From the NCBI GenBank assembly GCA_025462735.1, contig JAOAPC010000017.1, positions 1-64,000 on the forward strand: 64,000 nucleotides of DNA, given 5' to 3'. The number at the start of each line of letters is the position of its first letter. Within the stretch, counting starts at the first letter, position 1. Below the pieces are notes generated by a model. The model searched no databases. It was not told where the DNA came from and saw nothing but the letters and a program-made list of their open reading frames with translations. Shown here in pieces: positions 21,636 to 53,757 of the stretch. Source of the DNA: Acidobacteriaceae bacterium. GTDB lineage: Bacteria; Acidobacteriota; Terriglobia; Terriglobales; Acidobacteriaceae. The position numbers and the translations under genes are program-made.

Positions 21636-22291
21636 TGCACGAGCCATGGTTCAAGTTATTCGCTTCGGACTATCTGCTTGATGCCGACGTCGATGCCATG
21701 CCTCGCGAGGCAGGAGAACTACTTCTCCGCATGTGGTGCGTCTGCCACATCCATGGATACTGTCCATCAGATCCTGAAGAACTCGCCAGGTTGACACGTT
21801 GTAAGCTGTCGTACGTTTCTCAGAACCTTTCGCACTGTCTCCCACTCTTCGAATTACGTGGCGATCGCCTTTACAGCCGGCGCATGGAAAGGGAGAAAGA
21901 AAAATCCGCTGCGGCGAGTAAGAGCGCAAAGACGCGGTGGGATCGCAATGCGAAACGCAATGCGAACCGCAATGCTCAGAAGTCAGGTTCAGGTTCAGGT
22001 TCAGGTTCAAATTCTCCAGAAGCAACCCCTATATCCCCATGCGAAAGGACCTCGGCTGCGACTGCTGGGATCGCACAACTCACAAGTCGCGATATCAGAA
22101 ACGTCGCCAGGGAGGTGCAGGAACTAAGTGCGGGTGATCTCGCTGGACATGCTGACAAAGAGGCCATTTTCGAAATAGCGTGTGATCGCTGGGAACTTAA
22201 TCCTTCGCTCGTGAGAGCTGCGGCCGGGCGCTCTTCACTGGAATCGAAGTCGAACGGAAGGTCTCGCTCAAAGGCGGTCAACATCGCATGA
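21635..22291 (+). CDS. DUF1376-like phage replication protein
   Basis: 218 aa. N-terminal HEPWFKLFASDYLLDADVDA and MPREAGELLLRMWC match the DUF1376 pattern (W/P-x-x-x-x-DYL..T, then a hydrophobic helix), a domain at the N-terminus of many phage replication initiator-like proteins. The middle carries a low-complexity stretch: basic K/R/N repeats, then GSGSGSGS encoded by a caggtt hexamer array (21984-22007). The C-terminal part is helical. It is coupled to genes on both sides (TGATG before, ATGA after). Confidence 0.65.
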   Translation: MHEPWFKLFASDYLLDADVDAMPREAGELLLRMWCVCHIHGYCPSDPEELARLTRCKLSYVSQNLSHCLPLFELRGDRLYSRRMEREKEKSAAASKSAKTRWDRNAKRNANRNAQKSGSGSGSGSNSPEATPISPCERTSAATAGIAQLTSRDIRNVAREVQELSAGDLAGHADKEAIFEIACDRWELNPSLVRAAAGRSSLESKSNGRSRSKAVNIA

Positions 22292-23685
22292 GCGCGCGCC
22301 GACCCGCATCACCGGAGATAACGGACGCCTCGAACTGTGCAAACGTACAGTGTGCAACGAATGATACGATTCGCGCTGAGGCAACTAACCCGGCGAGCCA
22401 TCGGGAGAACGAAGCGATGGCGAGACGGAGGTTCCAACAACCAACACCGTTCAAGGAGGGGAATTTTTGGTGGTTGCGTGTCTGGGATACGAGCAAGACG
22501 GGCAGCCGCAAACGTCAACGCATCAAGCTAGCCAATGCGGACATGGCGGTCCGCGAAGTGCAGAAAATCGTCGACGAAAGACTCCGCCCGATGAATCAGG
22601 GGTTGGGTCTCACCGGATCGGCGATGAGTTTAAGTGACTTCATGGAAGACTGTTACATACCACGCTACTTGCGATCGGCGGCGCCAGGGCGCGCGGCGGA
22701 ACTTTCGAGCAGTACTCGCGAATGCTACCGCGGCGTGATCTCAAAATACCTGCAGCCGGATCTCGGGAAGCGGTGCCTGCGCGATCTCACCCGCCCGAAG
22801 CTGCAAGAGTATTTTTCGTACAAGGCGGCTGAGGTGTCGTATCCGACGATGTCGAAGATTAGGGATGCACTCTCTTCGGTTCTCCGCTCTGCGGTTGACG
22901 TGGAGTACCTCAACAAAAACCCGATGGAAGGGCTGCGGTTGCCGAAGGACCGGCGACCCAGGCGACCGAAGCCCACCATCACGCCCGAGCAGTTCGCCAA
23001 TCTCGTGCAACTCCTTTCCGAGCCCTACGCGACGATGATATTCACCGCCGTGTGGACCGGGCTTCGAGTCAGCGAATTGATCGGCCTCAAATGGCGCTGT
23101 ATTCATGCGGACTCTATCACCATCGAAGAACGCTACTGTCGAGGTGATTGGTCGCAGCCGAAAACCGGCGCCAGCGCTGCAACGATCGGTGTGGACCCTG
23201 AAGTCATTGCGCGCCTGCTTCGCCTGCCCACGCTAACCGTGGAAGTGCGAGCCGGCTGTGCTATCCGAAAACACAAACTGGTTAAATCTGGAGGAGCGGA
23301 TGATCTGGTATTCCAGAGCGTGCAGAAAGGTGCCCCCATGAACGATCAGAACATCCTGAAGCGACATCTGCAGCCAGCGGCCAACAAACTCGGTTTGCCG
23401 TTCGTCAATTGGCGCTGCCTGCGAACCTCACACGCGACCTGGTTGGTGCAGGCGGGAGCCGACCCGAAATCGGTGCAGGGACAAATGCGGCACTCTCGCA
23501 TTTCGACGACGATGGATATTTACGCGCAGATCGTACCCAAGTCTCAGCGCCGAGCACTTGAGCAGCTCTCGGCTTTTGCTGGGGTCAACGGCATTCCTGT
23601 AGCGCAGCAAACGGCAAGGGATCTCGATCTAGATTTTTCGGGTTCCGAACCCTTTCCGGAATTACGGTCCAAAACGGTCCAATAA
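22288..23685 (+). CDS. tyrosine integrase of the element (att-proximal)
   Basis: 465 aa; an internal ATG at 22417 with GGGAG is an alternative start giving 422 aa. Arm-binding N-terminus, core-binding domain (about 110-210) and catalytic domain with R260 in [14 protein letters not shown]292, R379, H402 in MRHSRI and nucleophile Y412 in MDIYAQ. The usual HxxR box is here W-R376-C-L-R379, so the first His is replaced by Arg. The last codons contain the tandem acggtccaa arm-type site, so the integrase gene overlaps its own probable binding site. It ends 57 bp from the att repeat, the classic position. Confidence 0.92.
23664..23682 (+). promoter_or_regulatory. candidate integrase arm-type site (right)
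   Basis: Same 19 bp as at 5469-5487 (acggtccaa twice, 10-bp period), located within the last codons of the integrase gene and 60 bp inside the right att repeat, in the same orientation. In the circular form the two sites would flank the core. Confidence 0.6.
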
Positions 23686-23742
23686 ACGAGGTTTCCAAAG
23701 TGCTCGCAATGGCGCAAAGCGTCCGCAAGTTGTTGGCAGGAT

Positions 23743-23792
23743 TGGTGGAGCTAGTCGGGATCGAACCGACGACCTCATCGTTGCGAACGATG
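23743..23792 (-). repeat. attR: 50-bp repeat within the intact tRNA-Ala
   Basis: Identical to 5372-5421. The repeat ends at tRNA position 27, and the 5' part of the tRNA (23793-23818) is unique to this copy. Confidence 0.92.
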
Positions 23793-23818
23793 CGCTCTCC
23801 CAGCTGAGCTATAGCCCC
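23743..23818 (-). tRNA. tRNA-Ala (anticodon CGC)
   Basis: 76-nt cloverleaf on the minus strand: acceptor GGGGCTA pairs with TAGCTCC, D-loop contains AGCTGGGAGAG, anticodon stem CATCG/CGATG with loop TTCGCAA (anticodon CGC, reads GCG), T-loop GGTTCGATCC, encoded CCA. Positions 27-76 are duplicated at 5372-5421. Integration kept this copy whole, so the tRNA stays functional. Confidence 0.96.
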
Positions 23819-23867: not shown

Positions 23868-24263
23868 CATGTCATCCCGAGCGCCGAGGGATCTGCAGTT
23901 CGAACTTTTCTCCCCAACCCTCGGCCAGGTCTTGCCACGTCGGATTCTTCGTTGCAACCAGGGCGAGCCTTTTTACTCGTGTCCAAGACTTGATCTGTTT
24001 TTCGCGCGCAATTGCGATTCCCACTTGATGAAATATTTCGTAATACACCAGTCGGTTGATGTTGTACCGCTTTGTAAATCCCTCGATTTCGCCGCGTTTG
24101 TGCTGCAGCGCACGACGATAAATGCTATTTGTAATCCCGGTGTATAGGTTAAGGGAGCGACTAGCCATGATGTACACGTAGTAGGCTTTCAGGCTCAACT
24201 GCAGATTCCTCGGCTGTGACGGTCATCCGCAAGCGAGTGACCTTCTTCGCTCGGGATGACATG
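23868..24263. mobile_element. palindromic repeat element carrying a GIY-YIG nuclease gene
   Basis: Perfect 16-bp terminal inverted repeats, catgtcatcccgagcg (23868-23883) and its complement (24248-24263). Inner arms also pair (23884-23900 with 24197-24213, 16 of 17). The nuclease ORF fills the space between the inner arms, and its stop codon lies inside the terminal repeat. A related element without a nuclease gene is at 53575-53757. Confidence 0.7.
23872..24198 (-). CDS. GIY-YIG endonuclease family protein
   Basis: 108 aa. YYVYIMAS and YTGITNSIYRR form the GIY-YIG signature (Y-V-Y... and Y-T-G with downstream Arg). A conserved HKRGEIEGFTKRY, LVYYE and AIAREKQIKSW complete the UPF0213/URI-like small nuclease domain, and the metal-binding Glu lies in REKQIK. 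Start is a TTG. The last residues (QIPRRSG) are encoded by the terminal repeat of the surrounding palindromic element. The domain is complete, so the protein is probably active; whether it moves the repeat is inference. Confidence 0.85.
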   Translation of the reverse strand: MSLKAYYVYIMASRSLNLYTGITNSIYRRALQHKRGEIEGFTKRYNINRLVYYEIFHQVGIAIAREKQIKSWTRVKRLALVATKNPTWQDLAEGWGEKFELQIPRRSG

Positions 24264-24359
24264 GAAACTATAAGGAACTTTGGGAATGAATGTCTGTGAC
24301 GAATGAACATCAGAACAAGATTACTGACTTGCTGGCTTAAAGGTTTCGCCGTAGCGAAC

Positions 24360-25295
<936 letters not shown>

Positions 25296-25308
25296 CTAAG
25301 AAGATCGA

Positions 25309-25436
25309 AAGCTTTTAACCGCAGAGTTCGCTGAGACTTCACAAAGAGCGCAGAGAAACCTCATAAAAACCTAGAAGAAATTGATCTTCTTTGCGGTCTC
25401 GGCGTAAACCTCTGCGATCTCTGCGGTTAAAGGCTT
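25309..25436. repeat. inverted repeat between icd and mdh
   Basis: aagcttttaaccgcagag (25309-25326) pairs with ctctgcggttaaaggctt (25419-25436) except one position; inner cgcagag / ctctgcg arms reinforce it. The motif aaccgcagag belongs to a family seen at 30186, 46768, 52144 and, more diverged, near 60117. The right arm touches the icd stop codon. Confidence 0.65.
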
Positions 25437-53574: not shown

Positions 53575-53757
53575 ATGTCATCCCGAACTCGCCGAAGGCG
53601 AGAGAGGGATCGTACGATGCTAGTTGAGCGGCAAGGGCGGAGGATTGCGACGTGCCGCCCCGAACTGTCCAGTTCGTCCTGACCACTGCAACGTCGATGC
53701 AAACGGACGTAAGGTCCCTCTCTCCTGCGCGTTCCGCGCACGAGTTCGGGATGACAT
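53575..53757. repeat. palindromic element without a gene, related to the GIY-YIG element
   Basis: Perfect 17-bp inverted repeats atgtcatcccgaactcg (53575-53591) and its complement (53741-53757), 149 bp apart; internal gagagagggatc / ccctctct arms pair too. It shares the terminal atgtcatcccga and the gagggatc box with the element at 23868-24263, but lacks the nuclease gene. It sits between the convergent genes murA and pnp. Confidence 0.65.

Follow-up and report, generated by a model that had tools for sequence, protein, structure and literature searches.

A small GIY-YIG nuclease gene enclosed by tagged REP hairpins, a candidate partner of the CGTC-tagged REP superfamily

Anatomy of the element

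The window, a 64,000-nucleotide stretch of DNA from an Acidobacteriaceae bacterium, harbours a small GIY-YIG nuclease gene within a repeat element (Table 1). The left arm of this element, CATGTCATCCCGAGCG (23868-23883), is matched at 16 of 16 bp by the reverse complement that ends at 24263 (arm 24248-24263), and the inner arms GCCGAGGGATCTGCAGTT and AACTGCAGATTCCTCGGC pair at 17 of 18 positions. The enclosed ORF passes the Pfam GIY-YIG model with 50.4 bits (cut-off 22.6). Its final codons (..IPRRSG stop) are encoded by the terminal repeat, the TGA being located inside TCGGGATGACAT, and across relatives too the gene often runs into the repeat and terminates at its TGA. A nuclease-free element further along the window has perfect outer arms (53575-53591 and 53741-53757, 17/17 bp), inner arms, GAGAGAGGGATC, and the same boxes. 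The original prediction had described these features, namely the perfect 16-bp inverted repeats with inner arms around a complete ORF, the repeat-encoded stop and last residues, and the related element at 53575, and all of them hold.

Table 1. Coordinates of the features in the window
Feature	Position	Strand	Remark
Complete element: TGTC-tagged REP hairpins as a head-to-head dimer around the nuclease gene	23868..24263	.	
Left REP unit, ATGTC-ATCCC-GAGCGCCGA-GGGAT-CTGCAGTT	23869..23900	+	
GIY-YIG nuclease ORF	23872..24198	-	108 aa, TTG start, stop inside left repeat
Right REP unit, longer internal stem-loop (ATGTCATCCCGAGCGAAGAAGGTCACTCGC...GAGGAATCTGCAGTT)	24197..24262	-	fold z -2.1
TTCATTCGTCACAGAC, fragment of the spacer of another REP dimer, upstream of the nuclease	24292..24307	-	common to the C9 copy and G003
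Nuclease-free head-to-head dimer, same REP family	53575..53757	.	arms fold z -2.7 and -3.2

Each single arm is a hairpin on its own, of the form TGTC-ATCCC...GGGAT-C. The element is therefore made of two REP units placed head-to-head with the gene as a spacer, rather than a simple terminal inverted repeat. For the left unit, the ATCCC/GGGAT hairpin was drawn, with a stability no better than that of shuffled sequences. Tag pairs that point outwards, the signature of head-to-head dimers, occur at 23869/24262, at 53575/53757 and at many other loci, and head-to-head pairs within 150 bp were also recorded in the genome-scale word counts. The gene itself is found inside one dimer (the window, Sphingobium), between two complete dimers (Azospirillum, locus L001) or in a REP array. 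Because the arms are hairpins and the placement of the gene varies, we rejected the reading of the element as a rigid TIR transposon.

At no more than one mismatch, TGTCATCCCGA has 8 sites in the window for 1.24 expected, and none of 100 shuffles reaches 8; the repeats are thus not a product of chance. A count of the terminal repeat over the whole genome, as envisaged in the original prediction, yielded 17 occurrences of ATGTCATCCCGA and 89 of TGTCATYCYGAG, with none for the reversed control, and there are copies with and without nuclease. The genome has seven small GIY-YIG genes, each of them located inside or between these repeats. One other copy of the element (G000:C9:34669-35060) is 77% identical to that of the window at the DNA level, and the local alignment of the two begins and ends at the repeat (window 23872-24262).

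The GIY-YIG ORF is the sole ORF with a recognised domain in the element, which contains no HuH/Y1 tyrosine transposase gene. The catalytic-type residues of the nuclease are Y9, Y19, G21, R29, H33, E66 and N85. Among 49 sequences, Y9, Y19, R29, H33 and E66 are invariant, as is Asn85 in the nuclease clade. Together with the Pfam score and an AlphaFold model with a pLDDT of 90, these residues place the protein in the GIY-YIG superfamily. In comparisons of that model with solved structures, the nearest folds are UPF0213 (1zg2) and then Slx1, a nuclease that acts on branched DNA. The protein consists of one domain and lacks the modules with which GIY-YIG homing enzymes bind DNA.

Other features surround the element. 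The motif at 24292 was considered as a promoter and rejected, as it stems from the spacer of a REP dimer. This sequence, TTCATYCGTCACAGAC (window 24292-24307, and the C15 and C12 copies of G000), has 8 copies in the genome at no more than one mismatch; it belongs to the spacer of one family of REP dimers and recurs some 30 bp beyond the nuclease elements at C16 and C9. On the other side, a tyrosine integrase-like ORF (22288-23685) lies beside a tRNA-Ala gene (23746-23818), and the two (22288-23818) probably represent an island border adjoining the element. In relatives, tRNA-Ala and the mdh gene (window 24360) are on separate contigs. Adjacency to a tRNA gene was rejected as a cause, since the gene of the window adjoins tRNA-Ala and the C9 copy, 85% identical, does not. 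Another repeat of about 50 bp, at 25308-25358, has dozens of copies across the genus.

Association of the nuclease with covarying hairpins

For a survey of its relatives, 80 nuclease genes were picked by protein pattern alone, the repeats playing no part. They belong to Acidobacteriota, Planctomycetota, Verrucomicrobiota, Chloroflexota, Bacteroidota/Ignavibacteria, Clostridia, Patescibacteria, Nitrospina, Omnitrophota and others. The nuclease gene is inside or between tagged hairpins in more than a dozen bacterial phyla. In an unguided word count, GTCATCC, TGTCATC, CTGTCAT and TGTCATT came out as the top 7-mers within 500 bp of the gene relative to the same contigs. There are 5-6 tags/kb within 200 bp of the gene as opposed to about 0.5/kb beyond 1 kb, and 72 of the 80 loci have a tag within 600 bp. 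The same trend holds for complete tagged hairpins (2.00/kb near the gene vs 0.16/kb far from it) and when only intergenic DNA is considered (5.43 vs 0.97 tags/kb). Tags are present on both sides within 250 bp for 47 of 72 nuclease genes, compared with 15 of 686 control ORFs and 4 of 174 small ORFs (Fisher p 4e-43).

The letters of the stems differ from one locus to the next and their pairing partners follow, while the tag remains constant. Thus, 200 of 326 heads are accompanied by their own complementary tail, as against 0.7% for the tail of any other class, and most loci devoid of the commonest word have another stem class (ACCCC, ATGCT, ACCCT or ATTTC). Units near and far from the gene on the same contig are of one type in 11 of 35 cases vs 6.2 after permutation (7 of 2000 permutations). 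Even a strict search for 7-bp stems, although these repeats call for a wider one, showed the true tag to be enriched 4-fold, with hardly any enrichment, if at all, when the tag was permuted. In relatives, most small GIY-YIG genes are found inside or between such repeats, each with its own variant (TGTCATTCCGAG, TGTCATCCTGAG, TGTCATTCCCGAAGGGAAT).

Many of the nuclease genes are broken, with in-frame stops in 9 of the 80 matches and numerous fragments, as expected of a selfish gene that decays once it has spread. Stops or frameshifts were noted at loci L061, L065, L078, L085, L092, L097, L102, L108 and L135 and in Sphingobium TomTYG73.

A superfamily of CGTC-tagged REPs was described in 2013 by Di Nocera, De Gregorio and Rocco, who concluded that it apparently has no dedicated transposase (PMC3733652). 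These repeats have a CGTC, TGTC or CCTC tag and a stem that starts with AT, form mainly head-to-head dimers, are intergenic and are present in many copies; they include Neisseria dRS3 and Rickettsia RPE-4/RPE-6 (PMC3733652). The window shares all these traits, with its tag beside an AT-starting stem (covarying stems in relatives), its dimers and its high copy number (the 89 TGTCATYCYGAG words), and judging from these sequence traits its terminal box is a TGTC variant of the superfamily. However, the published form has an 8-9 bp stem, a 4-5 nt loop and a CCA-type tail (PMC3733652), whereas in the window a 5-bp outer stem is combined with inner stem-loops of variable form and a tail of CTGCAGTT or GTACG; loops and tails are longer and different (CTGCA rather than CCA). 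We therefore call the copies of the window TGTC-type relatives. The superfamily was reported from five phyla, Acidobacteriota, to which the window belongs, not being among them (PMC3733652). Unlike in that study, where no dedicated enzyme was found, here a GIY-YIG gene is located inside or beside the dimers.

The repeat copies beside the nucleases of alpha-proteobacteria and Neisseria do fit the published CGTC form. A search of plasmid records with the protein of the window led to the very same genera as those listed for CGTC REPs (list in PMC3733652). Among published hosts of these REPs, the nuclease lies beside the host's own REP in Azospirillum lipoferum (flanks CGTCATCCCCGCGAAGGCGGGGATCC), Novosphingobium, Sinorhizobium meliloti (CCTC tag; Sinorhizobium flanks CCTCATCCCTGTGCTCGTCACAGGGATCC) and Neisseria, where the flanks in Neisseria gonorrhoeae are CGTCATTCCCGCGCAGGCGGGAATC, i.e. 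dRS3. This is likewise the case in Rhizobium, Shinella, Sphingobium, Aeromonas, Planktothrix and Spirosoma, each with its own REP form. The flanking repeats are divergent or one-sided in Novosphingobium, which has a divergent CGTC hairpin, and in Rhizobium sp. L51/94, a point against the partnership.

Co-occurrence and presence/absence at orthologous sites

Among 200 genomes of the class, those with a strong nuclease match have a median of 37 REP words vs 1 for those without (Fisher p 3e-20), although these genomes are not phylogenetically independent and the trend is weaker within families (p 8e-4, 0.04 and 0.06). One family of 49 genomes has no strong match and no more than five REP words per genome. 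Three genomes are REP-poor in spite of a strong match (G142, G080 and G093), and their repeats either differ in stem or tag or amount to just one dimer. Conversely, 11 REP-rich genomes (at least 50 words) have no strong match, which counts against a partnership between nuclease and REPs, and loss of the gene or another enzyme must therefore be assumed there. Weak GIY-YIG matches were rejected as an explanation for these genomes, as those fetched belong to a tRNA-associated subfamily without these REPs, described below.

Empty sites, to be sought in relatives according to the original prediction, were found in Azospirillum, Sphingobium, Shinella and the class of the window. In A. lipoferum, a dimer-gene-dimer array lies between sufB and sufC, which are adjacent and without REP in five relatives; a scan of 50-kb blocks in Azospirillum detected this REP type only at the nuclease. 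In Shinella, the block is present in WSC3-e and absent from H4-D48, whose site is REP-free. The REP-free empty sites of Azospirillum and Shinella mean that the REPs and the gene arrived or left together. The site between fnrL and a response regulator gene in Sphingobium exists in three states: REP-gene-REP in TomMM7A and others, a solo palindrome in two strains and neither in one. The palindrome is CGTCACCCCGGGTCAAGCCCGGGGTGACG in TomTYG64 and TomTYG74, the latter having one mismatched copy, and at the same site TomTYG73 has a frameshifted nuclease gene. In the class of the window, the site upstream of argH is occupied by the element in G142, G233, G118 and G245 and by nothing in G238. Thus, gene and repeats do move together across genomes, in the co-occurrence data as well as in these comparisons, an outcome in favour of the original prediction. 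REP-type insertions showed no target-site duplication that could be called clean, the exact junctions at the empty sites being too diverged, and this counts against the proposed mobility. Sinorhizobium hflX was rejected as an empty site, as the relative has the gene there too. In the gap upstream of argH (L202-L214), almost every species of the genus has a small gene of its own, and the gap is an insertion hot spot.

Possible roles of the nuclease

CGTC REPs, RAYT REPtrons and GIY-YIG nucleases were each already known. Our search of the literature, outside which most subscription papers and preprints lie, retrieved no link between GIY-YIG nucleases and REPs, and one may exist elsewhere. REPtrons combine GTAG REPs with a RAYT (REP-associated tyrosine transposase), an HuH/Y1 enzyme of the IS200/IS605 group. 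As in REPtrons, the nuclease gene is flanked by tagged hairpin REPs and the genome has many nuclease-free REP dimers. In contrast, the enzyme here has the unrelated GIY-YIG fold and the tag is YGTC, which sets the element apart from RAYT-type REPtrons. With the standalone UPF0213 and Slx1-like nucleases (1zg2, 1ywl, Slx1-Slx4), its best structural matches, the protein shares a single-domain fold and conserved GIY...YIG, Arg and Glu. However, known members are described as repair enzymes or have no assigned role, whereas the present clade is multicopy and REP-bound, and the C-terminal Asn listed as absent from the Slx1 cluster in the 2006 study of Dunin-Horkawicz is the invariant Asn85 here. 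GIY-YIG homing endonucleases and Penelope-like elements also are selfish elements driven by a GIY-YIG nuclease, but the present one has no intron, reverse transcriptase or DNA-binding module, and its ends are tagged hairpins. Inverted ends, non-autonomous copies and empty sites are reminiscent of MITEs and insertion sequences, unlike which it lacks a DDE or HuH transposase, shows no target-site duplication that we could clearly make out and has ends that are themselves hairpins.

We propose that the nuclease is probably the dedicated partner of the CGTC/TGTC-tagged REP superfamily, a GIY-YIG counterpart of the RAYT of REPtrons, and it is the best candidate for the enzyme that spreads the CGTC REP family. 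In our reading, the target of the Slx1-like enzyme would be a YGTC tag adjoining a hairpin, in DNA that is single-stranded or cruciform, with cleavage at that point. Joining of the element would be left to host repair or replication, since strand transfer is not to be expected of a hydrolytic GIY-YIG enzyme. The dimers with a nuclease would then be autonomous, and those without one, like the solo REPs, would be either non-autonomous copies moved in trans or deletion scars. The minimal mobile element of the original prediction thus stands in part: the enzyme and repeats travel together, with empty sites and copies with and without nuclease, but they are usually not one minimal TIR unit. As for a GIY-YIG enzyme mobilising hairpin repeats, the gene does travel with them; that the nuclease itself moves DNA is what we infer.

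The main rival explanation is homing into existing REPs, which would be older or otherwise moved. The nuclease would cut solo REP palindromes and spread by gene conversion via the homology of the repeat arms, and the REPs would have been colonised, not moved. The solo palindrome of Sphingobium TomTYG64 and TomTYG74 where TomMM7A and others have the gene between two REP arms fits this scenario, and GIY-YIG homing enzymes are well known (PMC1564403). Such a palindrome is nevertheless also the expected product of a deletion between the direct repeats ACCCCGGG. Homing appears unlikely to us, given the empty relatives of Azospirillum and Shinella without any REP at the site, nuclease-free lineages that are nearly REP-free and a single-domain protein devoid of homing-type DNA-binding modules.

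Alternatively, the enzyme might resolve cruciforms or hairpins and be tolerated or selected beside REPs without moving them. Its nearest folds are indeed Slx1 structure-specific nucleases, and prokaryotic Slx1-like proteins were predicted to work in repair (PMC1564403). Yet the gene is patchily distributed and multicopy; it is often decayed, orthologous sites are polymorphic for it, and so it looks mobile rather than housekeeping, which makes a repair role very unlikely. Finally, nuclease cassettes and REPs might simply pile up in large hot spots of intergenic DNA without being functionally connected. REPs are intergenic, the nuclease gene could share their niche, and in the genus sampled around G142 other small genes too are found at the argH site, a hot spot. 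Passive co-location is, however, very improbable in view of the two-sided tags, at about 2% in control ORFs, small ones included, vs 65% for the nuclease, of the excess of tags near the gene within intergenic DNA itself, and of the tRNA-type sister subfamily, which is intergenic as well and lacks these REPs.

REPs are among the commonest bacterial repeats and, to our knowledge, no enzyme has since been described for the CGTC type, which makes up half of the REP classification. If the nuclease is their partner, the origin and spread of CGTC REPs, dRS3 and RPE elements would gain a specific, testable enzyme, and the standalone GIY-YIG nucleases, a large, unassigned group long taken for repair enzymes, would gain a role. 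Partnerships between REPs and nucleases would then have arisen with two unrelated folds.

The weaker GIY-YIG matches in genomes of the class are not bound to REPs but have an intact tRNA gene on one side and, on the other, a copy of the 3' half of the tRNA. This sister subfamily, a negative control for the REP type, might possibly represent a separate, tiny mobile element that targets tRNA genes. At many loci the tRNA copy is joined to a GTC-tagged hairpin, e.g. CGTCCCGATGCCATCGGGAAGG, and the GTC tag common to both subfamilies argues for an enzyme family that reads a tag beside a hairpin. We see roughly even chances for a bacteria-wide class of minimal mobile elements whose sole protein would be a standalone Slx1-like GIY-YIG enzyme reading a GTC tag beside a hairpin, with one branch that built and spread the CGTC REPs, including Neisseria dRS3, and a sister branch that would rely on GTC-tagged hairpins to settle in tRNA genes. 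The loci of the sister subfamily (L177-L182, L184, L185 and L223-L239) are directly 3' of intact tRNA genes (Ala, Ile, Lys, Arg, Met, Pro and others). At L225 and L241, the tRNA duplication extends past the terminal CCA into flanking DNA and thereby resembles a long target-site duplication.
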